DNA from: Acidimicrobiales bacterium
GTDB taxonomy: Bacteria; Actinomycetota; Acidimicrobiia; Acidimicrobiales; Aldehydirespiratoraceae
NCBI GenBank assembly: GCA_022425325.1
Contig: JAKMFW010000026.1
Location: 1 to 64,000 of the forward strand
Length of the DNA: 64,000 nt
Reading direction: 5' to 3'
Shown here: positions 12,791 to 56,788 of the stretch, piece by piece
Layout of the letters: each line of letters opens with the position of its first letter
Numbering within the stretch: position 1 is the stretch's first letter
Position numbers and translations under genes: made by a program
The notes under the pieces: generated by a model
Seen by the model: only the letters and a program-made list of their open reading frames with translations
What the model was told of the DNA's origin: nothing
Database searches by the model: none

Positions 12791-13480
12791 ATGTCGGACG
12801 ACGACGAGATCGATCTCAACGCGCTGAGCGACGAAGACCTGACCGCACAGATGCACGACGATCTGTACGACGGCCTCGGCGAGGAAATCGAAGAAGGCAC
12901 CAACATCCTGCTCAGCCGAGGCTGGGACCCGAACCGCGTCCTCAATGACGCGCTCGTCGAGGGCATGCGCATCGTGGGCATCGACTTCCGAGACGGCATC
13001 CTCTTCGTGCCCGAGGTGCTCCTTGCCGCCAACGCAATGAAGGCCGGCATGGCCATCTTGCGACCGCTGCTCGCCGAGACCGGCGCAGAGCCGATCGGCA
13101 AGATCGTCATCGGCACCGTCAAGGGCGATATCCACGACATTGGGAAGAACCTGGTGGGCATGATGCTCGAGGGCGCCGGCTTCGAAGTCATCGATCTCGG
13201 CATCAACACCGACGTCGACGGATACCTTGCCGCCCTCGAAGAGCACAAGCCCGACATCCTCGGCATGTCCGCGCTTCTCACCACCACCATGCCCTACATG
13301 AAGGTGGTCATCGACACGATGGTCGAGCGAGGCCTGCGCGACGAGTACATCATCCTCGTCGGCGGTGCCCCGCTGAACGAGGAGTTCGGCGATGCGATCG
13401 GTGCTGATGCGTACTGCCGCGATGCGGCCGTCGCCGCCGAGACGGCGTCGGCCAAGGTCGCCGAAAAGCGCGCCGCCTGA
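12791..13480 (+). CDS. corrinoid (B12-binding) methyl-carrier protein, MttC/MtbC family
   Basis: A 229-residue protein. The N-terminal helical cap domain (residues 10-95) is followed by a B12-binding Rossmann domain with [13 protein letters not shown]; His115 is the expected lower axial cobalt ligand. [10 protein letters not shown] and [10 protein letters not shown] match the cobalamin pocket of MtbC/MttC proteins. It shuttles methyl groups from MttB-type methyltransferases to tetrahydrofolate. The first 37 residues are strongly acidic. It is the only corrinoid carrier in the window and opens the operon, with GGGGGAA before the start. Confidence 0.95.
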
Positions 13481-13492
13481 TCGTCGCTGCTC

Positions 13493-14122
13493 ATGGAGAC
13501 CGTCCACACGCCGCAGGTGCTGATCCTGGCCTGCGGCGCGTTGGCCACCGAGATCCGTGACATCACCCGACTCCACCGACTGGGCAACGTCACGCTCGAA
13601 TGCCTGCCGGGCATCTTGCACAACCGGCCGTCGGAAATCCCCGATGCCGTGCGGGCCCGTCTCGACCGAGCCCGCAGCAACTACGACCGCATCCTGCTCG
13701 GCTACGGCGACTGCGGCACGGGCGGTGAACTCGCCGACATCGCCGCCCAGGAAGGCATCGAGATGCTTCCCGGGGCGCACTGCTACCAGTTCTTCGCCGG
13801 GCAGCAGGTGTTCGACGCCATGCACGACGAGGACCCGACCGCCTTTTACCTCACCGACTACCTCGTGAAGCACTTCGATCGCATCATCCTGGACGGCCTC
13901 GGTATCGACGCCCACCCGGAGCTGCGCAACCTGTACTTCGGGAACTACACGAAGATGATCTACCTCGCGCAGACCGACGACCCGGACCTCGACAACCGGG
14001 CTCGCGCGTGCGCCGACAAACTCGGCCTTGCGTTCGAACGGGTTGCCACCACCTACGGTGACCTCGAACCGGCGATCGTCACGATCAGCACCCGGCCCGC
14101 CGCCGAAAAGGAGCACGTCTGA
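13493..14122 (+). CDS. DUF1638 protein
   Basis: A 209-residue protein of a family (DUF1638) regularly found beside MttB-type methyltransferases; no biochemical role is established that I know of. Candidate ligand residues are Cys14 (LILACGALATEI), Cys37, His43, Cys74 (GYGDCGTGG) and His96-Cys97 (PGAHCYQFFAG), set in motifs that look functional rather than structural. There is no signal peptide, so it is cytosolic. Placed directly after the corrinoid protein and overlapping the next gene as TGATG, it probably serves corrinoid handling or methyl transfer. Confidence 0.8.
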   Translation: METVHTPQVLILACGALATEIRDITRLHRLGNVTLECLPGILHNRPSEIPDAVRARLDRARSNYDRILLGYGDCGTGGELADIAAQEGIEMLPGAHCYQFFAGQQVFDAMHDEDPTAFYLTDYLVKHFDRIILDGLGIDAHPELRNLYFGNYTKMIYLAQTDDPDLDNRARACADKLGLAFERVATTYGDLEPAIVTISTRPAAEKEHV

Positions 14123-14487
14123 TGCCTCGACGCGGACGTGGCGGGCCCGGGCTCACCACCATCTACTGGCGCGACATCCCGGCCCAGGTCACCGCCACGA
14201 CCGAGGACGGCGGCAAGGAGCAGGTGCTCATGCATGATCGCTTCCAGGTTGCGATCGACCGGGCCGCCGCCGTGGCTGGACTCACCAAAACCGACGACTA
14301 CGTGAACGAGTGGCGCCGAGTGGCCACGAGCGTCGAGGGCGATGCGATCGCCGCCGCCCACGCCGCAGCCCAACGACTCGACAATGACCATCCCCGAGAC
14401 GTGCTCGAGGCCCTCGTGGCCAACGGCGGTCTCGATCCCGAGTCCGGCGTGTCCGGAATCGACACCGAACAAGAAAGCCCGTCATGA
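14122..14487 (+). CDS. 'virulence factor' (PF13769-type) small protein
   Basis: A 121-residue protein with the family core TIYWRDIPAQVTA, VLMHDRFQVAIDRAA and DDYVNEWRR. The family name is historical; members recur in MttB/corrinoid operons, where their role is unknown. The N-terminus MPRRGRGGPG is Arg/Gly-rich, like the tails of other proteins in this operon. It overlaps both neighbours (TGATG in front, ATGA behind), so it is likely made in step with them. Confidence 0.75.
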   Translation: MPRRGRGGPGLTTIYWRDIPAQVTATTEDGGKEQVLMHDRFQVAIDRAAAVAGLTKTDDYVNEWRRVATSVEGDAIAAAHAAAQRLDNDHPRDVLEALVANGGLDPESGVSGIDTEQESPS

Positions 14488-15398
14488 CCGACACCATCAT
14501 CTCCAGCGCCACGAAGGAGGTGGCGATCGGATTCGGTCGTCCCTTCGTCATGATCGGCGAACGCATCAACCCGACCGGCCGCAAACTGCTCGCCGAAGAG
14601 ATGAAGAACGGCGACTTCAGCCGGGTCGTCTCCGACGCCATCGCCCAGGTCGAAGCGGGTGCCCAGATGCTCGACGTCAACGCCGGCATCCCGCTGGCCG
14701 ACGAACCCGCCCTCCTTGTGCGGGCCATCCAGGAAGTCCAGGCGGTCACCGACGTGCCGATCGCTATCGACTCCTCGATCGTCGAGGCCCTCGAGGCCGC
14801 CATCGAGATCTATGAGGGCAAGCCGCTCATCAACTCGGTCACCGGTGAGGAAGAGGTCCTCGAGCGGGTCCTTCCGTTCGTCGCCAAGCACGGTGCCGCC
14901 GTCGTCGCCATCTCCAACGACGAGACCGGGATCTCCGAGGACCCCAATGTGCGCTTCGAGGTCGCCAAGAAGATCGTGAACCGGGCCGCCGACTACGGCA
15001 TCCCGGCCGCCGACGTTGTCGTCGACCCGCTCGTCATGCCGATCGGGGCCATGGGCACCGCCGGCCGGCAGGTTTTCGAACTCGTCGGCCGCCTGCGAGA
15101 CGAACTCAAGGTCAACACCACCTGTGGCGCCTCGAACGTGTCGTTCGGCCTGCCCAACCGTCACAACATCACCGGCACCTTCCTGGCGATGTCGATCGGA
15201 GCCGGCATGACCTCCGCCATCATGAACCCGCTCCATGGCGAGGTGAAGACGGCCATCATGGCGGCCGACGTCCTCAATGGACAGGACGAGAACTGTGCGG
15301 CCTGGATCGCCGCCAACCGCGACCCCGGCGAGGCCGGCGAGGGTGCCCGTGGTGGCCGTCGTGGTGGCCGCCGTCGTGCCGCTGCCGCCGGCAGCTGA
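14484..15398 (+). CDS. methyltetrahydrofolate:corrinoid methyltransferase
   Basis: A 304-residue protein with the pterin-binding TIM-barrel fold: MIGERINPTGRK, GAQMLDVNAG, DVPIAIDSS and LINSVTGEEE are the conserved folate-binding segments of the MeTr/dihydropteroate synthase-like family. It moves the methyl group between the corrinoid protein and tetrahydrofolate. The catalytic core ends near residue 280; the last 20 residues form an Arg/Gly/Ala tail (ARGGRRGGRRRAAAAG) absent from classical MeTr. The start overlaps the upstream stop as ATGA. Confidence 0.9.
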   Translation: MTDTIISSATKEVAIGFGRPFVMIGERINPTGRKLLAEEMKNGDFSRVVSDAIAQVEAGAQMLDVNAGIPLADEPALLVRAIQEVQAVTDVPIAIDSSIVEALEAAIEIYEGKPLINSVTGEEEVLERVLPFVAKHGAAVVAISNDETGISEDPNVRFEVAKKIVNRAADYGIPAADVVVDPLVMPIGAMGTAGRQVFELVGRLRDELKVNTTCGASNVSFGLPNRHNITGTFLAMSIGAGMTSAIMNPLHGEVKTAIMAADVLNGQDENCAAWIAANRDPGEAGEGARGGRRGGRRRAAAAGS

Positions 15399-15416: not shown

Positions 15417-17507
15417 ATGACCAGCCGGCCGGGCGACGGGAACGTCACCGTGGTGTTCACCCCCTCCGGGGTGCACGCCGACGTCGCGCCCGGCACCTCG
15501 CTGCTCGATGCAGCGCGGGCGGTCAAGGTCGACCTCGACTCGACCTGCGGTGGTCGTGGCCTGTGCGGGCGCTGCCAGGTGACGCCCTCGGTGGGCGAGT
15601 TCGCCAAGTGGGGCATCACCTCTGACGAGTCGTCGTTGTCACCGTGGACCTCCTCGGAGACCGACTACAAGGGTCGGCGCACGATCGAACCGGGCGGACG
15701 CCTCGGCTGCATGGCCGCCGCACTGGCCGACGTCGTCGTCGACGTGCCACCCGCCAGCCAGGTGCACCGCCCGGTCGTTCGCAAGAAGATCGATCTGCCC
15801 GGGCTGACCCTCGATCCGCTGATCACCGCTCGCTATGTCGAGCTTCCGGAACTCGAGCTGGGCGACGAGCGTTCCGACGTCGAGATCCTGCGGGAGGCGC
15901 TTGCGGCCGACTGGGGCATCGACGGCGTCGACGTCGATGCCGGCGTGCTCCCGGAACTTCACCCGGCGATCATCGACGGCAAACGGGCGATCACCGCCAT
16001 CGTGCACCGCGACGGGTCGGTCATGGCCGTGCGCCCCGGCTTCGATGAGGCCGTCTACGGCGTCGCCGTCGATGTCGGCTCCACCACCATTGCCGGCTAC
16101 CTGGTCGATCTCGCCACCGGCGATGTCGTCGCCAACGCCGGGGCGATGAACCCTCAGATCCGTTTCGGTGAGGATCTGATGAGCCGAGTCAGCTACGTGA
16201 TGATGAATCCAGGCGGCGATGACGAACTCACGTCAGCCGTCCGCGACGCGCTCGACACCCTCATCGAGGACCTCTGCAACGACCTCGACACCGACCTTCT
16301 GCCCGACGACGTCCGGACGCACATCCACGACATCGTGCTCGTCGGCAACCCCGTCATGCATCACCTGCTGTTGGGCATCGACCCGACGCCGCTGGGTGCC
16401 GCACCGTTCACGCTCACCGTCGGCGAACCGGTCGACATGCGAGCCGCTGATCTTGATCTCGGCCTGCCCTACGCCCGCTGCCATGTCGGCCCGTGCATCG
16501 CCGGCCATGTCGGCGCCGACGCTGCGTCGGCCACACTCAACGAACGCACACACGCCACCGTCGAGCCACAGCTGATGGTCGATATCGGCACCAACGCCGA
16601 GATCGTGCTCGGCACGGCCGAGCGCACCTACGCCGCATCCTCGCCGACCGGCCCGGCGCTCGAGGGAGCGCAGATCTCGTCGGGCATGCGCGCGACCGCC
16701 GGAGCGATCGAGCGCATCCGGATTGACCACGACACGTACGAGCCCCGCTTCAAGGTGATCGGTGCCGACGCATGGAGCGACGAGCCCGAATTCGCCGAGC
16801 AGACCGCAACACTCGACATCGCCGGCCTGTGCGGCTCGGCGATCATCGAGGTCATCGGCGAACTGTTCCTGTCCGGTCTGTGTGACCACAACGGCGTGAT
16901 CCAGGACCTGTCTGCGACGACCGACCGGATCGTCCCCGACGAGCGCACGTTCACCTACGTGCTTCGCGCCGAGTACGCCGATGCCGACGGCACCGTGCAC
17001 CCACAGCTGGCGATCACCCAGAACGACGTTCGCCAGATCCAGCTCGCCAGTTCGGCTCTTCGTGCCGGCATCGACCTCTTGATGGAGCACGCCGGGATCA
17101 CCGAGTGTCACGACGTGCGGCTCGCCGGTGCCTTCGGTGCCCACATCGACCCGGTCTATGCCCTGATCCTCGGCCTTGTGCCCGACTGCCCCGTGGACAG
17201 CGTCCGGGCGGTCGGCAACGCCGCCGGCGCAGGCACGGTCCGAATGCTGGTGAGCGCCGAACAGCGCGACGAGGTCGCCGCCGCAGTTCGCGACATCGAG
17301 AAGATCGAAACGGCCACCGAACCCCGATTCCAGGAGTTGTTCGTGTCGGCCATGGCGTTCCCCCACGCCACTGCACCGAGCCCCCACCTTGCCGAGGTCG
17401 TGACGCTGCCACAGCGGTTTGCGTCCGAGGCGGGTGGACGGCGCCGTCGTCGACGGGACACCAACGGAGGCGAGGCCTCCACGCAGAGCGAAAGGCAACA
17501 AGCATGA
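15417..17507 (+). CDS. RACE: reductive activator of corrinoid protein (2Fe-2S, ASKHA/DUF4445)
   Basis: A 696-residue protein. An N-terminal plant-type ferredoxin domain holds Cys44, Cys50 and Cys53 (CGGRGLCGRC) plus Cys98. An ASKHA ATPase-like body follows, with VDVGSTTIAGYLVDL, LMVDIGTNAEIVLG and ASSPTGPALEGAQISSG. Proteins of this type reduce inactive Co(II)-corrinoid to Co(I), driven by ATP. The C-terminus ends in an Arg-rich stretch (GGRRRRRRD). Its stop overlaps the MttB start (ATGA). One activator presumably serves the single corrinoid protein. Confidence 0.93.
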   Translation: MTSRPGDGNVTVVFTPSGVHADVAPGTSLLDAARAVKVDLDSTCGGRGLCGRCQVTPSVGEFAKWGITSDESSLSPWTSSETDYKGRRTIEPGGRLGCMAAALADVVVDVPPASQVHRPVVRKKIDLPGLTLDPLITARYVELPELELGDERSDVEILREALAADWGIDGVDVDAGVLPELHPAIIDGKRAITAIVHRDGSVMAVRPGFDEAVYGVAVDVGSTTIAGYLVDLATGDVVANAGAMNPQIRFGEDLMSRVSYVMMNPGGDDELTSAVRDALDTLIEDLCNDLDTDLLPDDVRTHIHDIVLVGNPVMHHLLLGIDPTPLGAAPFTLTVGEPVDMRAADLDLGLPYARCHVGPCIAGHVGADAASATLNERTHATVEPQLMVDIGTNAEIVLGTAERTYAASSPTGPALEGAQISSGMRATAGAIERIRIDHDTYEPRFKVIGADAWSDEPEFAEQTATLDIAGLCGSAIIEVIGELFLSGLCDHNGVIQDLSATTDRIVPDERTFTYVLRAEYADADGTVHPQLAITQNDVRQIQLASSALRAGIDLLMEHAGITECHDVRLAGAFGAHIDPVYALILGLVPDCPVDSVRAVGNAAGAGTVRMLVSAEQRDEVAAAVRDIEKIETATEPRFQELFVSAMAFPHATAPSPHLAEVVTLPQRFASEAGGRRRRRRDTNGGEASTQSERQQA

Positions 17508-19060
17508 GCGACGTCACCGAGGAAACCGGAGGCCGCCGAGGCGGCCGTCGCGGTGGTGGCCGTGCTGGCCGGCAGGCGGCCCGTACAGCCAGTGTGGCAA
17601 CAAAGCCGTACCTGGAGCGCACGATGCCGCCGGTCGAGATGCTCTCCGAAGATGGTCTCGCCGCCATCGAGGAGAACGCCGAGGAAATCCTCGCCACCGT
17701 CGGTGTGGCCTTCCAGGAGTTCCCGGAGGCGCTCGACCTGTGGCGTCAGGCCGGCGCACGGGTCGAAGGCGAGATGGTCTACTTCCCGAAGGGGATGTGT
17801 CGGGAGATCGTCGAGAAGAACGCGCCGACGTCCTATATCCAGCACGCTCGGAATCCCGAACGTTCCGTGAAGATCGGCGAGAACACGACCGTCTTCGCCC
17901 CGAACTACGGCTCACCGTTCGTGTTCGACCTCGACAACGGTCGCCGCTACGGCACCATCGAGGACTTCGAGAATGCCGTGAAGCTGGTCTACGACCTGCC
18001 CCACCTGCACCACAGTGGCGGTACGGTGTGCGAACCGGTTGACGTGCCGGTCAACAAGCGGCACCTCGACATGGTGTACGCCCACATCAAGTACAGCGAC
18101 AAGCCCTACATGGGCTCGGTGACCGCCGCCGAGCGGGCCGCCGACTCGATCGAGCTGAGCCGAATCGCCTTCGGTGGCGATCTTCAGGATCGCACCGTGA
18201 TGACCTCGCTCATCAATGCCTCGTCGCCGCTGCGCTGGGACGCCACGATGCTCGGCGCCGCCACGGAATACGCCCGCGCCAACCAGGCCTGCATCATGTC
18301 GCCGTTCATCCTTGCCGGCGCCATGTCGCCGGTGACCGTTGCCGGCCTTGCAGCCCAGTCGCTCGCCGAGGCCCTGTCGGGTATGGCGTACACCCAGCTC
18401 GTCCGTCCGGGCGCCCCGGTGATCTTCGGCACCTTCGCCTCGTCGATGTCGATGGCCACCGGTGCCCCCACCTTCGGCACTCCCGAGGGTGGTCAGGCCA
18501 TCTCGGTCATGGCAGCCCTTGCCCGTCGGGTCGGCACACCGTTCCGTTCGGGCGGCCAGTTCACCGCCTCCAAGTATCCCGATGCCCAGGCGGCCTACGA
18601 GTCGTCGTCGACGATTATCCCGACCGTGCTGTCCGGGGTGAACTTCGTGCTGCACGCCGCCGGGTGGCAGGAGGGTGGCCTCGCCCTCGGCTTCGAGAAG
18701 CTCATCCTCGACGCCGACCAGCTCGGCTTCATGGACGTGTATGCCCGCGGGATCGACATCAGCGAGAACGGTCAAGCCATGGAGGCCTTCCGCACGAACC
18801 CGCACGGCGAGCACTTCCTCGGCAACGGCCACACGCTGCAGAACTTCGAGACGGCGTTTGCTCGCTCGACCGAGGCCGACAACAACAGCTTCGAGCAGTG
18901 GAGCGAAGAGGGGTCACTCACCTCGGCGCAGCGGGCCAACACGACCTGGAAGCGCATGCTCGCCGAGTACACCGGCCCGGGCCTCGACGAGGCGATCGAC
19001 GCGGAACTCCAGGACTTCATCGGCCGACGCAAGGCGTCGATGCCCGACGCCAACTACTAG
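17504..19060 (+). CDS. MttB-family (non-pyrrolysine) quaternary/tertiary amine methyltransferase, paralogue 1
   Basis: A 518-residue TIM-barrel methyltransferase of the trimethylamine methyltransferase superfamily, starting at the ATG overlapping the RACE stop. Family signatures include MLGAATEYARANQACIMSPF, VTVAGLAAQSLAEALSG and the C-terminal GEHFLGNGHTLQNFETAF. There is no in-frame amber codon, so like bacterial MtgB-type enzymes it lacks pyrrolysine; those demethylate glycine betaine or related betaines onto a corrinoid protein. Residues 6-27 form an Arg/Gly-rich tail (GGRRGGRRGGGRAGR). The substrate cannot be read from sequence. Confidence 0.9.
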   Translation: MSDVTEETGGRRGGRRGGGRAGRQAARTASVATKPYLERTMPPVEMLSEDGLAAIEENAEEILATVGVAFQEFPEALDLWRQAGARVEGEMVYFPKGMCREIVEKNAPTSYIQHARNPERSVKIGENTTVFAPNYGSPFVFDLDNGRRYGTIEDFENAVKLVYDLPHLHHSGGTVCEPVDVPVNKRHLDMVYAHIKYSDKPYMGSVTAAERAADSIELSRIAFGGDLQDRTVMTSLINASSPLRWDATMLGAATEYARANQACIMSPFILAGAMSPVTVAGLAAQSLAEALSGMAYTQLVRPGAPVIFGTFASSMSMATGAPTFGTPEGGQAISVMAALARRVGTPFRSGGQFTASKYPDAQAAYESSSTIIPTVLSGVNFVLHAAGWQEGGLALGFEKLILDADQLGFMDVYARGIDISENGQAMEAFRTNPHGEHFLGNGHTLQNFETAFARSTEADNNSFEQWSEEGSLTSAQRANTTWKRMLAEYTGPGLDEAIDAELQDFIGRRKASMPDANY

Positions 19061-19068
19061 GAGCGGCC

Positions 19069-25338: not shown

Positions 25339-25370
25339 GGCGCCGACCCTATCGGTCGTCACCATCGACG

Positions 25371-25532: not shown

Positions 25533-26753
25533 ATGGTCGAGATGGGCGAAGAGCTCGTCAGGGTCGAAGACGTGTACAAGATCTTCGGACCCCAGCCGCG
25601 TGGCCGAGCCTTCGAGCTCAGCCAGGGCGGCATGGGGAAAGGAGAGGTGCACGCTCGAACCGGGCACGTCATCGGCCTCCGCGACGTCAACTTCAACGTC
25701 AAGCGGGGCGAGATTTTCGTGATCATGGGCCTGTCGGGCTCCGGTAAGTCCACCGCCATCCGCACGGTCAACAAGCTGCTCGACACCACCAACGGCCAGG
25801 TTATGGTCGACGGGGTTGATGTCCAGACCCTCGACGGAACCGACCTGCAGGAATTCCGTCGTGAGATGACCGGCATGGTGTTCCAGCACTTTGCCCTCTT
25901 CCCGCACCGCACGATCATCGACAACGTCGGTTACGGCCTCAAGATCCAGGGGGTCGAGAAGAGCCGGCGCGACGAAGCCTCACTCAAGGCGCTTTCGCTC
26001 GTCGGCCTCGAGGCGTACGCCGGCTACTCACCGAGCCAGCTCTCGGGCGGCATGCAGCAGCGTGTCGGCCTTGCCCGGGCCCTCGCCGCCGATCCGCCCA
26101 TCTTGCTCATGGACGAGGCCTTCTCGGCACTCGATCCACTGATCCGTCGTCAGATGCAGGACGAGATGATGGACATTCAGGCCGAACTCCACAAGACGAT
26201 CCTCTTCATCACCCACGACCTCAACGAGGCGCTGCGCATCGGTGACCGTGTGTGCATCATGAAGGACGGCGAGGTCGTTCAGATCGGCACTCCGGAGGAG
26301 ATCCTCACCGAGCCTGCCACCGGCTACGTGGCCGAGTTCGTGCAGGACGTCGATCAGGGCCGCGTCATCCAGGTCCACGAGATCATGGTCGACCCCCAGC
26401 CCACTGCCGCCAGCGCAGGACTCGGTGAGGCACTCACCGCCCTCGGCGACCGGGCCGGTTCGTTCGTGCTCGATGCCGACGGCAAGCCCGCCTCGGTGCT
26501 CACCGCTGGTGACGGCATCCGGGTCTCGGGTTCGGGCGGGTCGCTGAGCGACGCCGTTCGAACCGATTTCCACACCTGCACCCCGGAGATGACACTCAAC
26601 GAGGTGTATTCCGCTGCCGGCAAGGGCTTGCCTATCGCGGTGTGCGATGCCGACGGCAGGCTCGTCGGCAACCTCGACCCCCGCCACATCATGGAGGAAA
26701 TGGGTCGAGTCGAAAGTCTGATTGACAACTTCGAGCGAGAGGTCTTCATGTGA
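25533..26753 (+). CDS. proV: quaternary amine ABC transporter ATP-binding protein (ProV/OpuAA-like)
   Basis: A 406-residue ATPase from the ATG at 25533 behind a strong GGGGG ribosome-binding site. Walker A is GLSGSGKST, the signature LSGGMQQR, Walker [14 protein letters not shown], and the switch His is in FITHDLNEA. The C-terminal 120 residues form a CBS-domain pair ([29 protein letters not shown]), which in OpuA senses ionic strength. It energises uptake of betaines. The stop overlaps the permease start as TGATG. Confidence 0.92.
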
Positions 26754-28870
26754 TGCGGTTCTTCCAAGAAAACGCCCCAACGGAGAATGCGTCGTTCTGG
26801 ACCAAGGACTGGACCGATCAGTACAAGGTCAACTTCGGCGAGTGGGCCGACCAGTCCGTCGACTGGATCGACACCAACCTCGAGTGGCTGCTCAAGATCA
26901 TCAAGTGGCCGTTTGACTTCTTGCTGAGCAACGTCGTCGAGGGCTTCCTCGAGCAGCGTGGTTGGTGGCTCATCGTCTTGTTGATGTTCTTCATCGGCTG
27001 GGCCGTCCGCAGCTTCCGAGTCGGCCTCTTCGCCCTCGTCGCGCTCACCTTCTGCGCCATCCTCGGTCCGGGCTACTGGATCGAGACGGCCCGCACGATC
27101 GGCTTCATCGCCGTGGCGGTGTTCTTGTGTGTGGTGATCGGTATTCCCGTCGGTATCGCCTGCGGCCGCATCGATCCGGTGTGGTCCGTCGTGAGACCCG
27201 TGCTCGATGCCATGCAGGTGGTCCACTCGTTCGTATACATGCTGCCGTTCATCTTCTTCTTCGGCATCGGTGAAGAGTCGGCGACGATGGTGACGATGGT
27301 GTTCGCGCTGCCACCGCTCATTCGCCTGACGAACCTGGGCATCCGACAAGTACCCGAGGACGTGGTCGAGGCCTCACGGGCCTATGGCGCACCCGAGTAC
27401 CGTGTGCTCACCGACGTCCAGGTCCCGCTGGCCCGTCCCGCGATCATGACCGGCGTCAACCAGACCCTGCTGCTCGCGATCTCGATGCTCGGCATCGCCG
27501 CCATCATGGGTGCGGGTGGCCTCGGCCGTCTCATGTTCCAGGCGCTCTCCGGTCAGGACGTCGCCCGAGGCGCCTCCGCCGGCCTCGCCTTCTTTCTCGT
27601 GGCCGTCAGCCTCGACCGCATCTCCCAGCCCGACGAGGGATCGTCGCAGAGTCTCTTCACCCGTCTTCGCGGCGCATGGGTCCATCGCCGTGACCCCGAG
27701 GCGCTCCTCGATGCCGAAGCCGAGGCGGCGAAGGAAGCCGAAGAGCAGAACTTCGCCGGGCGGCCCGCCCCACTCGCTGCGAGCGAGGGGCGCGGCCTCA
27801 AGGTCGCCATGATCGGAGCTGTGATCGGCATCGCTGGCGTGCTGCTGCCGTGGGCGAACGATGCTGGTTTCGCCACCAGCCACTCGCGCCGCGGCGACGA
27901 CTCACTCGTCGGCGAAACCTTCAATGGCCTGTCGGCCAACGGCGGTTCCTTCTGGGGCTTCTTCGTCCTCGTCGGCTCGCTGTTCGTGCTGCTCGCCGGC
28001 ATCTCTCGCATGACCCGTCCCGACCCGGGCCGCTTCATGTCGGCCGACGGTGCCGTCATTGCGGCCTTCGCTGCCTTCGGCGCCTCCCTGGCCTACTTGA
28101 TGGGGTCGGCAGCCGCCACCGCCGTCGACTTCAGCAAAGGCATCGGCCCGTGGGTTGCCCTCTCCGCCTCGGCCATCATGGTCGTCGGCGGACTCATCGC
28201 CCTGCGCGACGCCCCCTACGCACCGCACCGCCCCGTGGCCTCCACACCCGAGTGGCACCGGGTCGTTGGTGGCGTTATCGCGCTGCTGTTGGCCATCGCC
28301 GGTACCTTCTCGGGCTGGTCCTTCGACGAGCGCAACGACTCGGTCCTCAGTGCCGAAGACGAAGCACTCATCGAGGAACTCCGTGCCGTTGCCGACGCCG
28401 ACCCGACCCAGGTCAACCGGATCAACATCGAGGTGCAGGCGATCTACAACAGCGCCCGCCAGTCCGAGAAGATCATCAGCGACTCGTGGACCGACATCGG
28501 CGCAGGCATGGGCTGGCCGTCGTTGATCCTCGCGGTCCTCAGCCTCGGCGCTGTGCTCGCGGCCTCCGGCATGATCGGCAGCAGCGAACAGCACCGCAAG
28601 TGGCGCTGGAGCGCGATCTCGATGGGTCTGGGCGCCGCCACCTCGGTGGTCGGTCTCGCCTGGATCGCCTCCGTCACTCGAGCGACCGACCCGAGCTATA
28701 TCGTCGGTGTCGGCTCGTTCCTGGTGATGATCGCCGGCATCTTCTTCATCTCGTCCGGACGAGCCCTCGTGCGCGAGTTCTTCCGGACCGAGGTGTTCGA
28801 CGACGACCCCATGGTCGACGTCACCGAATCGTCCAGCCAGACCGAGGACGCTGTTCCCGAGCCTGTCTGA
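26753..28870 (+). CDS. proW: quaternary amine ABC transporter permease (ProW-like) with extra C-terminal membrane domain
   Basis: A 705-residue permease, about twice the usual size. Residues 1-300 are a normal ProW: an N-terminal amphipathic stretch, TM segments, and the EAA coupling loop in VEASRAYGAPEYRVLTDVQ followed by LLLAISMLGIAAIMGAGGLG. After a charged Ala/Glu linker (residues 315-345) comes a second hydrophobic region with about eight TM segments (for example VIGIAGVLLPW and FLVMIAGIFFISSG) that I do not recognise. The C-terminal tail is acidic. Coupled to proV by TGATG. Confidence 0.88.
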   Translation: MRFFQENAPTENASFWTKDWTDQYKVNFGEWADQSVDWIDTNLEWLLKIIKWPFDFLLSNVVEGFLEQRGWWLIVLLMFFIGWAVRSFRVGLFALVALTFCAILGPGYWIETARTIGFIAVAVFLCVVIGIPVGIACGRIDPVWSVVRPVLDAMQVVHSFVYMLPFIFFFGIGEESATMVTMVFALPPLIRLTNLGIRQVPEDVVEASRAYGAPEYRVLTDVQVPLARPAIMTGVNQTLLLAISMLGIAAIMGAGGLGRLMFQALSGQDVARGASAGLAFFLVAVSLDRISQPDEGSSQSLFTRLRGAWVHRRDPEALLDAEAEAAKEAEEQNFAGRPAPLAASEGRGLKVAMIGAVIGIAGVLLPWANDAGFATSHSRRGDDSLVGETFNGLSANGGSFWGFFVLVGSLFVLLAGISRMTRPDPGRFMSADGAVIAAFAAFGASLAYLMGSAAATAVDFSKGIGPWVALSASAIMVVGGLIALRDAPYAPHRPVASTPEWHRVVGGVIALLLAIAGTFSGWSFDERNDSVLSAEDEALIEELRAVADADPTQVNRINIEVQAIYNSARQSEKIISDSWTDIGAGMGWPSLILAVLSLGAVLAASGMIGSSEQHRKWRWSAISMGLGAATSVVGLAWIASVTRATDPSYIVGVGSFLVMIAGIFFISSGRALVREFFRTEVFDDDPMVDVTESSSQTEDAVPEPV

Positions 28871-28949
28871 CGAGCAATACCAGTCCGCCTGGTGGCTTTT
28901 TAGCCCCCGCGTCCGGCCAGGACCGTCGAGTGGACTATCCTTGCATCCG

Positions 28950-28971
28950 CTGTGTGACGCCTGTCGCACAG
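28950..28971 (+). promoter_or_regulatory. intercistronic hairpin between permease and binding-protein genes
   Basis: CTGTGTGAC (28950-28958) pairs with GTCGCACAG (28963-28971), with one T-G wobble and a 4-nt loop, 26 nt before the binding-protein start. TATCCT at 28936-28941 might be a -10 box of a separate promoter. Either arrangement would let the binding protein be made in excess of the membrane subunits. Confidence 0.4.
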
Positions 28972-28997
28972 CAAAACATTCCCGGGAGGGGAAACAC

Positions 28998-30227
28998 ATG
29001 AACAAGAGCATGAAGCTGCTCATCGCCCTGCTTGCGGTGTTCGGTCTCGTCGCTGCCGCGTGCGGCGACGACGACAGCACCACCGACGCCGGTACCGACG
29101 ACGCCGCCGCTGACGACGCTGCCGACGACGCTGCCGACGACGCTGCCGCTGACGACGCTGCCGACGACGCTGCCGACGACGCTGTCGACGACGCCGCCGA
29201 CGACACCTCGATGGACATTTCCTCGATCGGTGCCGGTGTCGACGTGACCATGGGTCGCGCCAACTGGGCCTCGGGCTACGTCCAGGCCGAGATCTACAAG
29301 CAGACCCTCGAGCAGGCCGGTTACACCGTGGCCAGCCCGTCGCTCCTGGAGCTTGACCCGTCGGCCGGCTACCTCGCCATGGCCGAGGGTTCGATGGACT
29401 TCTGGACCAACAGCTGGTACCCGGGCCACCTTTCGTGGCACGCCGCTGAGCTGACCGACGGTTCGCTCGTCGCCGATCACGTCTCCATCGTCGATGGTCT
29501 CTTCGCCGGCGCTGGCGTTCAGGGCTTCCTGATCACCAAGTCGGTTGTCGAGGAGAACGGCATCACCTCGATGCAGCAGATCAACGACGACCCGGCGATC
29601 CGCGAACTCTTCGACAGCGACGGCAACGGCAAGGCCAACATCTTCGGCTGCCCCGAGAGCTGGACCTGCGACAACATCATCAGCAACCAGATCACCTACT
29701 ACGGCTGGGACAACATCGAGCAGACCATCGCCGGTTACGACGCGATGTTCGCCCAGGCCACCGACCTTGCCAACGCCGGCGAGCCGATGGCGATCTACAC
29801 CTGGACCCCCTCGGCGTACGTGACCACCCTCATTCCGGGTGACAACGTGATGTGGCTGACCATGAACGCTGACGACATCCTCGACGACTCGAACCCGAAC
29901 GGCGACGAAGGCGGCGAGTTCCACGACCAGCGTCCGGGCTTCGACGGCTTCGGTGCGGACTTCTGCACCCAGCCCTGCCAGCTCGGCTGGAAGCCGGCTG
30001 ACATCCAGGTCACTGCAAGCAACGACTTCCTGGCTGCCAACCCCTTCCTCGAGGCACTGTTCCCGCTGATGCGTCCGTCGGTCATCGACATCTCGATCCT
30101 TCAGGTCGAGCAGGCCAACGGCGACGGCTCTGAGGCCGAGGTCGAGTCCATCGCCGCTGGCTGGATTGCCGACAACCAGGACCTCGTGAGCTCGTGGCTC
30201 GAAGAGGCTGCTGCCGCTGTCAGCTGA
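28998..30227 (+). CDS. proX: quaternary amine ABC transporter substrate-binding lipoprotein (ProX/OpuAC-like)
   Basis: A 409-residue lipoprotein. The signal peptide ends in the lipobox LVAAAC, so it is anchored outside the membrane. Residues 24-70 are an Asp/Ala repeat linker, followed by an OpuAC-type domain. MDFWTNSWYPGH, YGWDNIEQT, YTWTPSAYV and MWLTM hold the Trp/Tyr residues typical of the aromatic cage that binds trimethylammonium or dimethylsulfonium groups. GGGAGGGG precedes the start at 28998. The ligand (glycine betaine, proline betaine, carnitine, DMSP) is not resolvable from sequence. Confidence 0.9.
   Translation: MNKSMKLLIALLAVFGLVAAACGDDDSTTDAGTDDAAADDAADDAADDAAADDAADDAADDAVDDAADDTSMDISSIGAGVDVTMGRANWASGYVQAEIYKQTLEQAGYTVASPSLLELDPSAGYLAMAEGSMDFWTNSWYPGHLSWHAAELTDGSLVADHVSIVDGLFAGAGVQGFLITKSVVEENGITSMQQINDDPAIRELFDSDGNGKANIFGCPESWTCDNIISNQITYYGWDNIEQTIAGYDAMFAQATDLANAGEPMAIYTWTPSAYVTTLIPGDNVMWLTMNADDILDDSNPNGDEGGEFHDQRPGFDGFGADFCTQPCQLGWKPADIQVTASNDFLAANPFLEALFPLMRPSVIDISILQVEQANGDGSEAEVESIAAGWIADNQDLVSSWLEEAAAAVS
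29096..29205 (+). repeat. in-frame 12-bp tandem repeat encoding an Asp/Ala linker
   Basis: Imperfect copies of GACGACGCTGCC follow one another inside the binding-protein gene and encode DDAADDAADDAA-type sequence between the lipid anchor and the folded domain. Such a repeat can change copy number by slippage, altering linker length in 12-bp in-frame steps. Confidence 0.8.
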
Positions 30228-33262: not shown

Positions 33263-33293
33263 ATCCATGACCGACATCGTTCACACTGTTGCC

Positions 33294-42380: not shown

Positions 42381-43943
42381 TCAGAAGTCGGTCTCCACAC
42401 CGCCCTCGGCGATGCGGCGGTCGACGAAGTCGTCGAGTTCGGCTCGTACGGCATCGTCGAGGGCGGGGGCCTCGTACGTACCGAGCAACTCTTCGGCTCG
42501 CCGTTCGGCGTGGTCGTAGGAGGTCGGTCGACCGGCCTCGTCCCAGGTCTCGAAATTGCGCCAGTCCGAGATCATCGGCTTGTAGAACGCATCGCGGTAC
42601 CGATCCTGGGTGTGCTGGGTGCCGAAGTGATGCCCACCCGGGCCGACCTCGGCGATGGCGTCGACCGCTCGGGTGGCGTCGTCGACGATGAGGGGCTGGA
42701 GGAAGGTCCCGACCATCGAGAGCAGGTCGGCATCGATCACCATCTTCTCGGGGCTGGAGTGCAGGCCACCCTCCATCCATCCGGCGCCGTGGAAGACCAG
42801 GTTGGCGCCGCCCATGATCGCCCCCCACAGGGAGAACACGCTCTCGTATCCGGCCTGCGTGTCGATGGCGTTGGCGGCACAGACGTTGGAGCTGCGGTAC
42901 GGGATGCCGTAGCGGCGGGCGAGCTGGCCGCCGAGCATCGCCGACTGCATGAACTCTGGTGTCCCGAACGCCGGCGAGCCCGACTGCATGTCGACATTGC
43001 TGGTGAAACCGCCGTACATGACCGGTGCGCCTCGGCGCACGAGTTGGGTGAAGGCAATACCGGCGAGCGCCTCGGCGTTCTGCTGCACGACCGCACCGGC
43101 GACGGTGACCGGTGCCATCGCACCCGCCAGCGTGAACGGGGTAAGGATGATCGGCTGATTACGAGACGAGTACTGGATGATGCCTTCCGACATCGGGATG
43201 TCGAGGCGGAGCGGTGAGCTGACGTTGATCACCGAGTGCACGATCGGGTGCGTGTCGATCTCGTCCTCGGAGAGGCCTCGGACGATCCGCACCATCTCGA
43301 GACAGTCGAGGTTGCGCTGGGCGCCGAGCGAGTAGACGTTCACCGCCTTGTTGGTGAGCGTGAGGATGTCGCGGGTGGCCTCCAGGTGACGGATCGACGG
43401 GTGGAGATCGACTGGTTCGACCGGATAGCCGGCGTGGCTGTGAAGGATGTTGAGGCTCTGGGTCAGTTTCAGCAGCGTCCGATAGTCCTCACGGTTACCG
43501 GTACGCCGACCTCCCCGGCGGTCCATGTAGTTCGGGGCGCTTGCAACGGCCGTGAAGGCGACATTGTCACCACCGATCACGAAGTCGTGCGCCGGATCGG
43601 GCGCATGCATCGTGAACTCGCTCGGCACCGACGAGATCAGTTCGGTGATGAGTTCGGGGTCGAAGCGGACCCGTTCGCCGTCGATCGCGGCACCGGCCTC
43701 GGCCCACATCTCCAGGGCCTTGGGATGCAGGAAGTCCATCCCGGTGTCGCGCAGCACCTCCAACGAGGCGAGATGGATCGATTCGAGTTCGTCGTCGCTC
43801 ACCACCCGGGTCGGTTCCATCGGGCGCTTGTACAGACGCCATGGAACCTGCTGCGGCCCGACGGGGCCGGTCGGCCGTTCGCGACGGCCGCCCCGACGAC
43901 GCCGACCACCGGTCTCGGTGGTGTCGGTGGGCGTGTCGGTCAC
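42381..43943 (-). CDS. MttB-family methyltransferase, paralogue 2
   Basis: A 520-residue non-pyrrolysine MttB homologue starting at the GTG at 43943, which overlaps the IclR stop as GTGA. Family segments include ASAPNYMDRRGGRR, IILTPFTLAGAMAPVTVAGAVVQ-type sequence and VGPGGHHFGTQHTQDRY. Residues 11-21 are an Arg/Gly tail (TGGRRRRGGRRE). It has no corrinoid gene of its own, so it presumably uses the carrier encoded at 12.8 kb. Operon partners suggest a methylated betaine or DMSP as substrate. Confidence 0.88.
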   Translation of the reverse strand: MTDTPTDTTETGGRRRRGGRRERPTGPVGPQQVPWRLYKRPMEPTRVVSDDELESIHLASLEVLRDTGMDFLHPKALEMWAEAGAAIDGERVRFDPELITELISSVPSEFTMHAPDPAHDFVIGGDNVAFTAVASAPNYMDRRGGRRTGNREDYRTLLKLTQSLNILHSHAGYPVEPVDLHPSIRHLEATRDILTLTNKAVNVYSLGAQRNLDCLEMVRIVRGLSEDEIDTHPIVHSVINVSSPLRLDIPMSEGIIQYSSRNQPIILTPFTLAGAMAPVTVAGAVVQQNAEALAGIAFTQLVRRGAPVMYGGFTSNVDMQSGSPAFGTPEFMQSAMLGGQLARRYGIPYRSSNVCAANAIDTQAGYESVFSLWGAIMGGANLVFHGAGWMEGGLHSSPEKMVIDADLLSMVGTFLQPLIVDDATRAVDAIAEVGPGGHHFGTQHTQDRYRDAFYKPMISDWRNFETWDEAGRPTSYDHAERRAEELLGTYEAPALDDAVRAELDDFVDRRIAEGGVETDF

Positions 43944-49795: not shown

Positions 49796-49816
49796 CCGAC
49801 GCTCAGTCAGCGTCGG
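49796..49816. terminator. hairpin terminator overlapping the SDR stop codon
   Basis: CCGACGCT (49796-49803) pairs perfectly with AGCGTCGG (49809-49816), loop CAGTC, between convergent genes. The stem includes the last codons and stop of the SDR gene at 49803-50567. Confidence 0.55.
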
Positions 49817-50567: not shown

Positions 50568-50580
50568 CGCTGCTCCGTGC

Positions 50581-51357
50581 TCACTGGGCCGTGTATCCGC
50601 CGTCGAGGCTGAGGTTGGCGCCGTGGATGTGACGGCTGGCATCGGAACACAGGAACAGTGTGAGATCGGCGACTTCGCTCGGCTCCGGGATCCGACCCTC
50701 GGGAATCGAGGCCAGGTTGCGTTCGAACACTTCGTCGGCGCTGGTGCCCGCAGGATGTTCAGAGACAAGCATGGGCGTGTCGACCGAACCAGGGCAGATC
50801 GCGTTGATACGAATGCCCTCCGATGCGTGATCGAGCGCCATCGCCCGGGTGAGGTTCGTGACCGCCCCCTTCGACGCGCAGTAGGCGACGAGGGCAGACG
50901 AACCGACGAGACCACAGGTTGACGAGATGTTGACGATCACGCCACCGCCGCGCTGCCGCATGACCGGCACCGCGGCTCGGGAGAGGAAGAACGTCCCGTC
51001 GACATTGATCGACATCACCCGATGCCAGTCAGCATCGGTGGTGCCCTCGGCATCGGCCCGGTGGATCACACCCGCAGCGTTGACGACGATGTCGAGCCCG
51101 CCGAACTCGGCGAGGGCCGTGGCGACGAGATGTTCGGCCTGGGTCGAGTCGGCGACGTCACCGATCGCCGTTGCCGCCGACCCCCCAGTCGATCGGATGG
51201 ACTCGACGACCGCAGCCGTTCGCTCGGCATGGCGGCCGCCGACGACGACCGACGCACCCGATGCTGCGAGCACGGTGCAGATGGCGGTGCCCATCCCCGA
51301 GGAGCCTCCGGAGACGAGCGCCACCTTTCCTTCGAGATCGACGGCCAGACCGCCCAT
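50581..51357 (-). CDS. short-chain dehydrogenase/reductase B
   Basis: A 258-residue SDR: SGGSSGMGTAIC, NAAGVIH, catalytic YCASKGA and CSDASRHIHGANLSLDGG. Only about 10 bp separate it from the FAD oxidase upstream and 13 bp from SDR A downstream, so it is clearly part of the same operon. Substrate unknown. Confidence 0.8.
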   Translation of the reverse strand: MGGLAVDLEGKVALVSGGSSGMGTAICTVLAASGASVVVGGRHAERTAAVVESIRSTGGSAATAIGDVADSTQAEHLVATALAEFGGLDIVVNAAGVIHRADAEGTTDADWHRVMSINVDGTFFLSRAAVPVMRQRGGGVIVNISSTCGLVGSSALVAYCASKGAVTNLTRAMALDHASEGIRINAICPGSVDTPMLVSEHPAGTSADEVFERNLASIPEGRIPEPSEVADLTLFLCSDASRHIHGANLSLDGGYTAQ

Positions 51358-51366
51358 GTCAGTTCC

Positions 51367-52683: not shown

Positions 52684-52714
52684 CGGCCTCAGGAGATGTC
52701 GGAGCGGTCGGTGT

Positions 52715-54208: not shown

Positions 54209-54218
54209 CTCACGCCTT

Positions 54219-55232
54219 TCACTTGCCTCCGGCACGGCCGGAGTTCGTCGCTCGGCTCACGCCGGAATTGTGTGTCATCTGGACCAGCCAGTCCTTTTCG
54301 TCATCCCACTCACGGAACACGAGCGTGTCCCGATTGGTGCCGTTGATCGGCAGGGTCGACAGAGCGGTCTGCAACGCGACCCGACCCTGCCGGGTCATCG
54401 GCATGACCGGGCGACGACACGGGCCGACGGCCCGGCCGACCATGTTCGTGGCCGTCTTGACTGCGGAGTTGTACTCGGCGTCGACATTGTTTTCCCAGAA
54501 GAACATGTTCGCCGGGAGCATCTGCTCCCAGAGCCTGAGAGCACCGGCGTGATCACCGGACTGCACCAGGTTCCAGAGCTGCACGCACTCGTGCGGCATG
54601 ACGTTGGCCGCACCCCAGATCCAGCCCGCTGCGCCCGACATGGCGGCGTATGGCGCCAACGGGTCGGCGCCGGCGAGCACATGGCCGCCGATGCCGATCA
54701 GCTTCTGGAGGCGGATCAGATCGCCGGTGGAGTCCTTGATGTAGTCGATGTTCTCCATCGCCATGAGCTGTCGGTACAGGTCCGGATGGATGTCGAAGCC
54801 GCTGTTGACCGGGATGTTGTAGAGCACGATCGGGATGTCGATCGCTTTAGCGAGCTTCTCGTAGTGGAAGAGCACCCCGCGTTCAAACGGCCCCTCGAAG
54901 TACGGCGGCAGCACCATTGCGGCCGCCGCCCCGTGATCAGCGGCCCGGCGCGTGCGTTCGATCGCGTCGGTGGTGGTGATCGCCGAGGTCTGCGCAACCA
55001 CCGGGATGCGACCGTCGACGATCTCGCATCCGAGCGAGATGATGCGATCCTTTTCGTCGTCGGAAAGGAAGGCGAACTCGCCCGTTCCGGCACACAGCAC
55101 GAGGCCGTGTACGCCGGCATCGATCAGACTCTCGATGTGGTCGCGCAGGCGACCCTCGTCGAGATGTTCACCGGTGTCGTCGAACGGCGAGGTCATCGCC
55201 GCACACACACCGTGCAGCAGAGGCGTGGTCAT
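54219..55232 (-). CDS. dihydrodipicolinate synthase-family aldolase/lyase
   Basis: A 337-residue DapA-fold protein. GLVLCAGTGEFAFLSDDEK is the substrate-loop region, VLYNIPVNSG carries the catalytic Tyr, and YIKDSTGD the Schiff-base Lys. The ATG at 55232 is preceded by GGAG, 5 nt away; a GTG at 55238 overlapping the MttB3 stop is the alternative. Non-lysine operon context suggests a catabolic aldolase forming or cleaving a 2-oxoacid. The tail of about 40 residues is longer than in DapA. Confidence 0.8.
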   Translation of the reverse strand: MTTPLLHGVCAAMTSPFDDTGEHLDEGRLRDHIESLIDAGVHGLVLCAGTGEFAFLSDDEKDRIISLGCEIVDGRIPVVAQTSAITTTDAIERTRRAADHGAAAAMVLPPYFEGPFERGVLFHYEKLAKAIDIPIVLYNIPVNSGFDIHPDLYRQLMAMENIDYIKDSTGDLIRLQKLIGIGGHVLAGADPLAPYAAMSGAAGWIWGAANVMPHECVQLWNLVQSGDHAGALRLWEQMLPANMFFWENNVDAEYNSAVKTATNMVGRAVGPCRRPVMPMTRQGRVALQTALSTLPINGTNRDTLVFREWDDEKDWLVQMTHNSGVSRATNSGRAGGK

Positions 55233-55234
55233 GG

Positions 55235-56788
55235 TCACTCCAGGGTCTCCGGAATCTCACGGATCCGACGTTCGATGAAGTCGCGCAGCGCTTCGTCGAC
55301 ATCGTCGGGCAGTTCGGGTTCGACATAGTCGGCGAGCATCTGCCTCGCCTTCTTCGTGCCGCGTGCCTCGGTGTCCTCGGCCCCGGCGGCGAGCCACTGC
55401 TCGTAGCCGTCACTGTCCATCAACTCGGGCATGGCAAACGCGGACTCGAAATTGGCAAGTGTGTGGGCGGTGCCGAGGAAGTGCCCGCCGGGCTCGACCT
55501 CGCCCATCGCCGCGAGCGCACCGTCGAGCTCGTCGAAATCGATGCCCTCGACGAAGCGGCGGAACATCTCGGCCTGCTCACCGTCGACCACCGCCTTGGC
55601 GTAGCTCTGACACAGCGCCGACTCCATGTACCCCGTGGTCGAGAGCACGAAGTTCGCGCCGGCGAGCGCCACGCCGAACATGTTGCGGGCGGCCTCGTAC
55701 CCGGCTTGGGCGTCGAAGGCCTTCGACGCCGTGCACATGCCCGAGCAGCGCCACGGCAGCTGGTAGCGACGGGCGAGTTGGCCGACCAGCAGGTTCATGT
55801 GGTCGATATCGGGGGTGCCGGCCATCGGGGCGCCCGACTTCATCGACACCGTGGCGAGCCACTGGCCATAGACCGCTGGCGCGCCGGGCCGAACGATCTG
55901 GCTGAACGCAACACCGGCGAGCGCCTCGGCGTTGATCTGCACGACCGAGCCGATCGTCGACGCCGGTGTCGACGCCCCGCCGAGCACGAACGGCGAGAAC
56001 AACATCGCCTGGTTGGCGCCGCTGTAGACCTTGACAGCGTCGAGCATGGTCGAGTCCCAGACGAGCGGCGAGTTGCCGTTGGCCAGGCACGTCATCACCG
56101 TGTTCTGGTCGACGAACTCCTCACCGAACAGCATCTGCGCCATCGTCAGGGAGTCTTCGGCCCGCTCCCGACTGGTGACCGCACCCATGAAGGGCTTCGT
56201 CGAGTGCTTCATCAACGAGTAGGTCATGTGGAGATGCCGATGCGGTACGGCGATGTCCATCGGCTCGCAGAGCACACCCCCTGCCATCTGCATCGCCGGG
56301 GTCATCTGAGCGATTTTGGCGAAGTTGTGGAAGTCGTCGAGCGTGGCGTTGCGACGGGTGCCATCGAGGTCGCGAACGAATGGTGCGCCGTACGCAGGGG
56401 TGAAGATGCTCTTGCGGCCACCGAGGGTCACACTGCGCGCAGGGTCGCGGCCGACCATCGTGTAGTCGCTCGGCGCCATGGCGACGAGTTCCATGAGGAA
56501 CTCGCGATCGATGCGCAGGCGATAGCCGTCGATCGACACACCCCCACCCGAGCTGGCCTGGCGCCACATCTCGATCGATTCATCGTCGCGGAACTCGATG
56601 CCGGTGCTTTCAAGCAAGCGCATCGTGCGGTCGTGCACGATGTCGACCTGCTCGGGCAGCAGTGCATCCATGTACGGAATGCCCCGCTCCATTTCCGGGA
56701 GATAGCGCTGGGTGTAGGCGGTGCGGGCATCGCGGCGGGCGCCGCGACCGCGACGCCCAGCGCGAGCTGGTGCGGTGGTATCGGTCAT
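55235..56788 (-). CDS. MttB-family methyltransferase, paralogue 3
   Basis: A 517-residue non-pyrrolysine MttB homologue from the ATG at 56788, overlapping the LysR stop as ATGA and preceded by GGGGGA. Family segments are FTPAYGAPFVRDLDG, DAVKVYSGANQAMLFSPF, VVQINAEALAGVAFSQ and GGHFLGTAHTLANFESAF, closest in feel to paralogue 1. Residues 7-22 are an Arg/Gly-rich tail (RAGRRGRGARRDAR). It lacks its own corrinoid partner. The operon partners (aldolase, amine oxidase, aldehyde dehydrogenase) point to an N-methylated amino compound. Confidence 0.88.
   Translation of the reverse strand: MTDTTAPARAGRRGRGARRDARTAYTQRYLPEMERGIPYMDALLPEQVDIVHDRTMRLLESTGIEFRDDESIEMWRQASSGGGVSIDGYRLRIDREFLMELVAMAPSDYTMVGRDPARSVTLGGRKSIFTPAYGAPFVRDLDGTRRNATLDDFHNFAKIAQMTPAMQMAGGVLCEPMDIAVPHRHLHMTYSLMKHSTKPFMGAVTSRERAEDSLTMAQMLFGEEFVDQNTVMTCLANGNSPLVWDSTMLDAVKVYSGANQAMLFSPFVLGGASTPASTIGSVVQINAEALAGVAFSQIVRPGAPAVYGQWLATVSMKSGAPMAGTPDIDHMNLLVGQLARRYQLPWRCSGMCTASKAFDAQAGYEAARNMFGVALAGANFVLSTTGYMESALCQSYAKAVVDGEQAEMFRRFVEGIDFDELDGALAAMGEVEPGGHFLGTAHTLANFESAFAMPELMDSDGYEQWLAAGAEDTEARGTKKARQMLADYVEPELPDDVDEALRDFIERRIREIPETLE

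Follow-up and report, generated by a model that had tools for sequence, protein, structure and literature searches.

Gene content of the locus

The stretch of DNA considered here (the window) comprises 64,000 nucleotides of contig JAKMFW010000026.1 of an Acidimicrobiales bacterium (assembly GCA_022425325.1), and at 12.8-20.0 kb it holds an operon built around an MtgC-type corrinoid carrier: carrier, DUF1638 protein, PF13769 protein, the pterin-binding methyltransferase MtgD, the reductive activator RACE, the methyltransferase MttB1 and a 3-hydroxyisobutyrate-dehydrogenase-like protein, in this order (Table 1). Two more PF06253 (MttB-family) genes, MttB2 and MttB3, lie at 42.4 and 55.2 kb, both on the minus strand. 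The carrier, DUF1638, the PF13769 protein, MtgD, RACE and MttB1-3 all score above the Pfam cut-offs, and the frames of MttB1-3 contain no internal stops, so that the complete corrinoid operon and the two further MttB homologues, which the original prediction had read from the letters of the window, are confirmed. The proteins share a feature that is the main subject of this report: runs of Arg and Gly stand at the beginning of MttB1, MttB2 and MttB3 and at the end of MtgD and RACE.

The assembly (2.62 Mb in 102 contigs) is 95.26% complete, i.e. about 5% is possibly missing. In the whole of it PF06253 is found at five places (the three of the window, C61:18039 and C97:21430), PF02607 at one, which is the operon carrier, and PF14574 at one, which is the operon RACE; a protein search with the carrier returned a second, weaker place in the same genome, without a PF02607 match. 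The original prediction had placed three MttB paralogues on one carrier and one activator: the single carrier and activator hold assembly-wide, but the MttB count rises to five. The genome-wide search for further carrier and RACE genes, which had been suggested with it, revealed none separate for MttB2 or MttB3 in this 95% complete assembly, and a carrier of its own for each MttB was rejected because the assembly has no second PF02607. These gene counts are most simply read as a hub with a single carrier, and the original interpretation is supported in part. MttB1-3 reach 245-312 of the 525 bits required by the model of pyrrolysine-type MttB (TIGR02369) and have no in-frame amber codon. A fused MetH was not found in this genome (no second PF02607, no fused PF02574 frame); instead, the single PF02574 place (C1:14801-15631, open frame of 367 amino acids), on a contig other than that of the operon, encodes a stand-alone MtgE. 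As to the fate of methyl-tetrahydrofolate, the genome has a single MTHFR match, which at 20.4 bits stays below the cut-off of 24.

Arg/Gly-rich tails on the partners of the carrier

If the tails are taken as tags for docking on the carrier, MtgE should possess one as well, and its C-terminus, looked for after the tails had been seen on the operon proteins, reads GRRRRGGRRRS. For counting, a C-terminal tail was defined as a net charge (R+K-D-E) of at least 5 in 10 of the last 40 amino acids (at least 4 in counts across the class Acidimicrobiia), and the N-terminal tag of MttB as a net charge of at least 4 or at least 5 in 20 amino acids, a 10-residue version also being used. Scanning genome contigs with patterns from the carrier alignment gave at least 592 pattern matches and at least 586 relatives. 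From the latter the 80 best loci were retained, which are close relatives of the carrier; they stem from Acidimicrobiia, other actinobacteria, Chloroflexi and Alpha-, Beta- and Gammaproteobacteria (at least three phyla) and span 42-72% GC content. Open reading frames (ORFs) were counted in them when they had homologues in at least three other loci, did not run off the locus end and did not overlap a better ORF; other filters give 65 MtgD and 60 RACE, as against the 46 and 53 used here. Tails of at least 5 terminate 37 of 46 MtgD, 48 of 53 RACE and five of seven MtgE proteins, compared with 5 of the 302 other conserved ORFs (Fisher p of 7e-36, 1e-47 and 2e-7, respectively, not corrected for kinship), and none was seen in these loci in DUF1638 (0/55), the carrier (0/79), MttB (0/41) or the PF13769 protein (0/20).

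Within the class, where a net charge of 4 sufficed, the RACE tails follow linkage to mtgC: all 24 mtgC-linked RACEs are tagged and none of the six unlinked ones is. Tails are likewise present on 18 of 19 MtgD and 16 of 18 complete stand-alone MtgE proteins, and absent from three MeTr homologues that belong to other corrinoid systems and from the two MmuM-like PF02574 proteins. Seven RACEs are unlinked to mtgC, six of them with a locus, and another corrinoid system was confirmed for three (L039, L064, L065). The 36 PF02574 places of the class include 30 with a locus, among which are eight fused MetH, the 18 complete stand-alone MtgE and the two MmuM-like frames; one further frame is partial and has a tail (L159), whereas L150 and one frame of L154 are cut by the locus end. 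Annotated plasmid records of S. meliloti, P. aminovorans, Azoarcus and A. aminovorans place the tails inside annotated proteins: among 67 coding sequences (CDS) listed by hand from the four records, a subset of the CDS there, the C-termini of MtgE, MtgD and RACE have a net charge of 4-6 in seven of seven cases (at least 5 in five), while 2 of 57 other CDS show 5, and all three MttB N-termini have a net charge of 6 in 20 residues.

The N-terminal tag was followed in 53 MttBs (51 of the class and two from annotated plasmids), with a net charge of at least 5 in 48 and at least 4 in 51; it is also found on distant MttB5-type proteins encoded away from mtgC. MttB starts were set by rule, and in the two misses (L129, L292) a run of basic residues lies directly ahead of the assigned start. 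For comparison, 284 genes in 364 kb of the own genome were sampled (from the window, from a stretch of C61 and from 20 contig stretches, among them C1, picked because it holds MtgE). Their N-termini reach 5 in nine cases and 4 in 21 over 20 amino acids; over 10 amino acids, a charge of 5 is attained by nine C-termini, including those of MtgE, MtgD and RACE, and by six N-termini, including those of MttB2 and MttB3. MttB1 is not among the tagged genes of this sample because its start was called too far in. On these counts the C-terminal tails are the sharp signal and the N-terminal tag of MttB the softer one. The MttB tag falls inside the Pfam MTTB model, which matches MttB1 from residue 16 onwards. 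In known structures, the annotated S. meliloti MttB, which has a similar tag, shares its N-terminus with the tagged PDB entry 4yyc, and the MtgB chain of PDB 9yce, with two residues before the aligned core, leaves no room for a tag.

Two further proteins were considered as bearers of tails and rejected: the PF13769 protein has a basic N-terminus here and in several Acidimicrobiia but no such run in two annotated proteobacterial copies (including that of S. meliloti), and MTHFR has no tail in three resolved C-termini of the class nor in three annotated ones (net 0, 0 and 3). Codons for Arg and Gly are rich in G and C, termini without structure are free to drift and some unrelated proteins reach an equal charge, as would be expected if the tails were functionless compositional noise of high-GC termini. 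We nevertheless regard this as highly improbable, given that loci at 42-46% GC retain the tails, partly with Lys, that the other conserved ORFs of the 80 loci and the unlinked RACEs of the class so seldom or never have them, and that three of the nine C-termini standing out in the own genome belong to the very enzymes in question; an artefact of GC content was rejected on the same low-GC loci and on the few background C-termini with tails.

Arg/Gly-rich disordered tails are generic binders of polyanions, and the MtgD tail is predicted to be disordered: in the AlphaFold2 model (mean pLDDT, the model's own confidence score, 88.0) its residues stay below 50. Moreover, the sequence of the tails varies while their charge is kept. 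Both traits would suit an ordinary Mtg hub in which the Arg tails bring the modules together at nucleic acid, polyphosphate, a membrane or a condensate, the carrier meeting them by co-localisation. However, the carrier itself lacks a C-terminal tail and so would not be gathered unless it binds tails, and the RACE tails track mtgC linkage within one class. We hold this explanation to be rather unlikely.

The carrier and its acidic N-terminus

In an alignment of 22 sequences with our carrier as reference, it is 77-87% identical to its 21 relatives, which belong to several phyla. Its identity as MtgC was judged against the cobalamin-binding protein of S. meliloti pSymB (81.6% identical over 88% of the length) and not against the R. 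pomeroyi MtgC; the pSymB homologue sits beside MttB, DUF1638, MtgD, RACE and bmt. With the NCBIfam MtgC models the carrier stays below the curated cut-offs (204 of 370 bits for NF047996, 170 of 310 bits for NF047995). In the 80 loci, aligned to the start of the query, residues 1-36 of the carrier have a net charge of -9 to -16 (mean -13.2); the mean of -9.7 obtained from unaligned rows (55 rows, maximum +5) is distorted by wrong starts. The same segment has -11 to -14 in four annotated carriers; two carriers from a different system show -5 and -6. AlphaFold2 models the carrier with a mean pLDDT of 86.6 and residues 14-26 as helical.

DUF1638, or else the PF13769 protein, might be the receptor of the tails, acting as a scaffold or chaperone which brings clients to the carrier. 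DUF1638 is encoded in the operon, and P. inhibens requires it to make methionine, no role being proposed for it in the part of that report considered here (PMC5764234). Against such a receptor, DUF1638 has five conserved acidic columns where the carrier has 27, and a mean net charge over the whole protein of -7.6 compared with -22.5. The column count is confounded by the much higher overall conservation of the carrier, in which 11 basic columns are conserved as well, compared with three in DUF1638. All in all, we consider DUF1638 or the PF13769 protein an improbable receptor.

One carrier and many MttBs in Acidimicrobiia

The class survey covered 148 genomes, including our own, searched for PF06253, RACE and the carrier. 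MttB occurs in 24 of them and at least two MttBs in 15, of which 14 have a single mtgC-type carrier (at least 77% identity) with a linked RACE, the carrier of G144, broken into two pieces by the ends of contigs, being counted as one. Ten of the 15 have no other stand-alone corrinoid protein at 40% identity or more among the matches listed, whereas four (G042, G082, G129 and G144) have an additional one of 43-51% identity, and the last three of these a second RACE as well. In a tree of the 53 MttBs (quick search, no bootstrap; support as SH-like approximate likelihood ratio, SH-aLRT), MttB1 forms a clade of 22 rows, 21 of them beside mtgC (SH-aLRT 97), MttB2 one of ten rows (99) and the MttB5 type one of 11 rows (100); MttB3 and MttB4 of the own genome are long single branches of unsure placement. 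Judging by these clades, most MttB paralogues are old subfamilies maintained beside a single carrier.

It could be argued that MttB2-MttB5 use carriers lost in the gaps of the assembly, or act on no corrinoid protein at all, and the incompleteness and the 102 contigs of the assembly, the second stand-alone corrinoid proteins of the four genomes named above and the MttBs of G051, for which no carrier was seen, speak in favour of this. We find it very unlikely, since two thirds of the multi-MttB genomes show no second stand-alone carrier, within the limits just given, and since MttBs encoded away from mtgC bear the same kind of tag as MttB1.

Fused MetH was not seen in 16 of the 24 genomes of the class with mtgC and is present in the other eight. 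Locus L109, from a one-contig genome of 4.8 Mb (G027), encodes mtgC, DUF1638, MtgD and RACE with tails, with neither a PF06253 match nor a fused MetH, and is apparently a pure split methionine synthase. Five loci (L103, L104, L111, L117 and L121) have the order carrier, DUF1638, PF13769, RACE, MttB1, with no MtgD match within the operon. L133 and L134 (of G144 and G082) contain a second corrinoid system, with a carrier about 50% identical, its own RACE, a distant MeTr and no Arg tails, and L294 (G105) is a further corrinoid cluster, in which carrier, RACE and MtgD homologue (210 bits) are devoid of tails; no PF06253 match is listed for its genome.

Neighbourhoods and probable substrates of the MttBs

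Downstream of the MttB1 operon lies an OpuA-type transporter. MttB2 is surrounded by an IclR regulator, a Rieske oxygenase similar to GbcA (174 bits against a cut-off of 670), a DAO-GcvT enzyme resembling dimethylglycine dehydrogenase and an M24 protein; by this context, it probably belongs to a betaine demethylation cluster. MttB3, the start of which overlaps the stop of a LysR gene, is part of an operon (window 49806-57696, minus strand) encoding LysR, MttB3, a DHDPS-family protein, ALDH, DAO and two SDR proteins, which would suit the catabolism of betaines of the hydroxyproline or pipecolate type. The substrates of MttB1-3 are accordingly given here as probable classes, read from homology and gene context. 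Two pyridoxal-phosphate enzymes of Cys/Met metabolism are encoded near the methionine-synthase hub (window 24049-25365 and 30597-31772), and beside the quaternary-amine transporter two adjoining genes (window 33267-35075) match halogenase D (HalD, 33 bits) and PhyH, respectively.

Table 1. Features of the Mtg locus in the window, with the basis on which each was assigned
Feature	Position	Strand	Basis
mtgC-type corrinoid carrier, 229 aa	12791..13480	+	PF02310 (B12-binding) + PF02607 (B12-binding_2)
Carrier acidic N-terminal segment, residues 1-36, proposed docking face	12791..12898	+	charge; helix 14-26
DUF1638 protein, untagged	13493..14122	+	PF07796
PF13769 'Virulence_fact' small protein	14122..14487	+	Pfam match
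MtgD, pterin-binding methyl-corrinoid:tetrahydrofolate methyltransferase	14484..15398	+	PF00809
MtgD C-terminal Arg/Gly tail, residues 285-304	15336..15395	+	sequence; AlphaFold2 pLDDT < 50
RACE/RamA-like reductive activator	15417..17507	+	PF14574, PF17651, PF17650
RACE C-terminal Arg tail	17421..17504	+	tagging in mtgC-linked RACEs
MttB1 (mtgB), operon methyltransferase	17504..19060	+	PF06253, 710 bits
MttB1 N-terminal Arg/Gly tag	17528..17587	+	sequence
OpuA-type quaternary-amine ABC transporter (ATPase, permease, binding protein)	25533..30227	+	PF00005, PF00528, PF04069
MttB2	42381..43943	-	PF06253, 642 bits; alternative upstream ATG at 43985 possible
MttB2 N-terminal Arg/Gly tag	43872..43910	-	sequence; net 6 in 10 aa
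MttB3	55235..56788	-	PF06253, 628 bits
MttB3 N-terminal Arg/Gly tag	56720..56764	-	sequence; net 5 in 10 aa

A proposed hub with docking tags

We propose, with a probability of roughly 0.58, that the locus encodes an aerobic Mtg hub whose client enzymes dock with their Arg/Gly tails on the acidic N-terminus of MtgC. With the enzyme roles assigned by homology to the systems of R. pomeroyi and P. inhibens, five MttBs, each specific for its substrate, would demethylate quaternary amines and load the methyl groups onto the cobalt of the single MtgC, MtgD would shuttle methyl groups in either direction between MtgC and tetrahydrofolate, MtgE would pass them from MtgC to homocysteine, and RACE would reduce the carrier once it is oxidised. 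The flexible tail, N-terminal in the MttBs and C-terminal in MtgD, RACE and MtgE, may be the common tag recognising the acidic, conserved N-terminus of MtgC: charge would hold a client's tail near the acidic cap while the catalytic faces exchange, and the five MttBs, MtgD, MtgE and RACE would alternate there. Unrelated enzymes would thereby compete for one carrier, and new MttBs could join by gaining the tail. The broader idea of an address tag, i.e. tails interchangeable on at least four protein families, such that any enzyme gaining one plugs into the acidic B12 carrier, is more tentative, and we would put it slightly short of an even chance. The extra N-terminal domain of MtaC, which fits a groove between the MtaB subunits (PMC9842639), offers a precedent for docking by way of a carrier's N-terminus.

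Several observations weigh against docking by tails. Corrinoid caps often are somewhat acidic, and the binding of tail and carrier to each other is a proposal drawn from patterns of sequence and charge. The scan pattern QMHDDLY lies in the acidic segment itself, so its frequency of 59 in 80 carriers is partly given by construction; a second scan pattern is present in 79 of the 80, and the 21 carriers without QMHDDLY, found by it, are acidic too. In M. barkeri, the main contacts between MttB and MttC are made by the cap domain and the dimerisation loop, and the MttB N-terminus aids oligomerisation, residues 10-19 forming strands (PMC9842639), and Bmt, the homocysteine module of P. inhibens, is active in vitro without the carrier (PMC12366255). 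The tails moreover are not universal: they stay below the threshold in 9/46 MtgD, 5/53 RACE and 2/7 MtgE of the 80 loci, are weak in some Chloroflexi (L197, L201) and in MttB5 of the own genome (net 4), and are missing from the MtgE of L151, the genome of which (G129) has mtgC and no fused MetH match, the MtgE of L149 reaching 3. Nor is the N-terminal charge exclusive, as at least 5 in 20 amino acids is also attained by 7 of 57 other annotated CDS, and at least 4 in 10 amino acids by 25 of 171 other ORFs (compared with 35/39 MttB1 and 5/5 MttB2). Finally, the 97% complete assembly of G051 contains four MttBs with basic N-termini (L115, L128 and L284), but neither mtgC nor RACE was found in it.

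A shared and removable tail makes the hub testable. If the proposal is true, the tail could help to find unrecognised clients and could be used to couple additional methyl donors or acceptors to the carrier, and it would provide a sequence signal for assigning MttBs to a shared carrier. The tail rule would also bear on how bacteria split methyl groups between betaine breakdown and methionine, which matters because Mtg genes are reported to be highly expressed in the ocean (PMC12478193).

Comparison with known systems

We found no report of Arg tails on corrinoid partners among the open-licence papers listed, and a tail shared by unrelated partners appears to be undescribed there; the main texts of PMC12478193 and PMC12366255 do not contain the word 'arginine', nor does that of PMC12478193 contain 'tail'. 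The closest relative is the MtgBCDE system of R. pomeroyi, where MtgC and MtgD are required for both betaine demethylation and methionine synthesis and MtgE is the homocysteine module (Mausz et al. 2025, PMC12478193). Like it, the present system has an MtgC-type carrier, a PF06253 MtgB, a pterin-binding (PF00809) MtgD, a RamA-like RACE, DUF1638 and a stand-alone PF02574 MtgE, a fused MetH not being found in the genome; it differs in its five MttBs, compared with the two named for R. pomeroyi, and in belonging to a probable actinobacterium with one operon. With the split methionine synthase of P. inhibens (Price et al. 2018, PMC5764234) it shares separate homocysteine, pterin and corrinoid modules as well as RamA-like and DUF1638 proteins, although no MttB hub is described in the portion of that report referred to here. 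The methyl network feeding tetrahydrofolate that was originally predicted was incomplete: the prediction overlooked the arginine tails, as well as the fact that the operon forms the centre of a split methionine synthase, so that methyl groups can also reach methionine.

In structural terms, MtgB (PDB 2qne and 9yce, the latter without room for a tag) and the M. barkeri MttB-MttC complex (7xcl-7xcn) belong to the same MttB family. A hub is also known from Eubacterium limosum, in which MtqC serves MtpB, MtcB and MtyB (PMC8604678), i.e. several MttB-family enzymes with one carrier, one activator and one tetrahydrofolate methyltransferase; the gene counts obtained here agree with such an arrangement. 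E. limosum differs in being an acetogen; it has 42 members of the MttB family, and MtqC is accompanied by another corrinoid protein (PMC8604678). The premise that each MttB usually has a cognate carrier is thus partly wrong, as these three enzymes share MtqC and the aerobic MtgC is shared too (PMC12478193). The earlier interpretation was correct in outline, and the hub it described is already known in kind: because E. limosum MtqC and R. pomeroyi MtgC were shared carriers before, a shared-carrier hub as such is not new, and the new element is the tail common to its unrelated partners.

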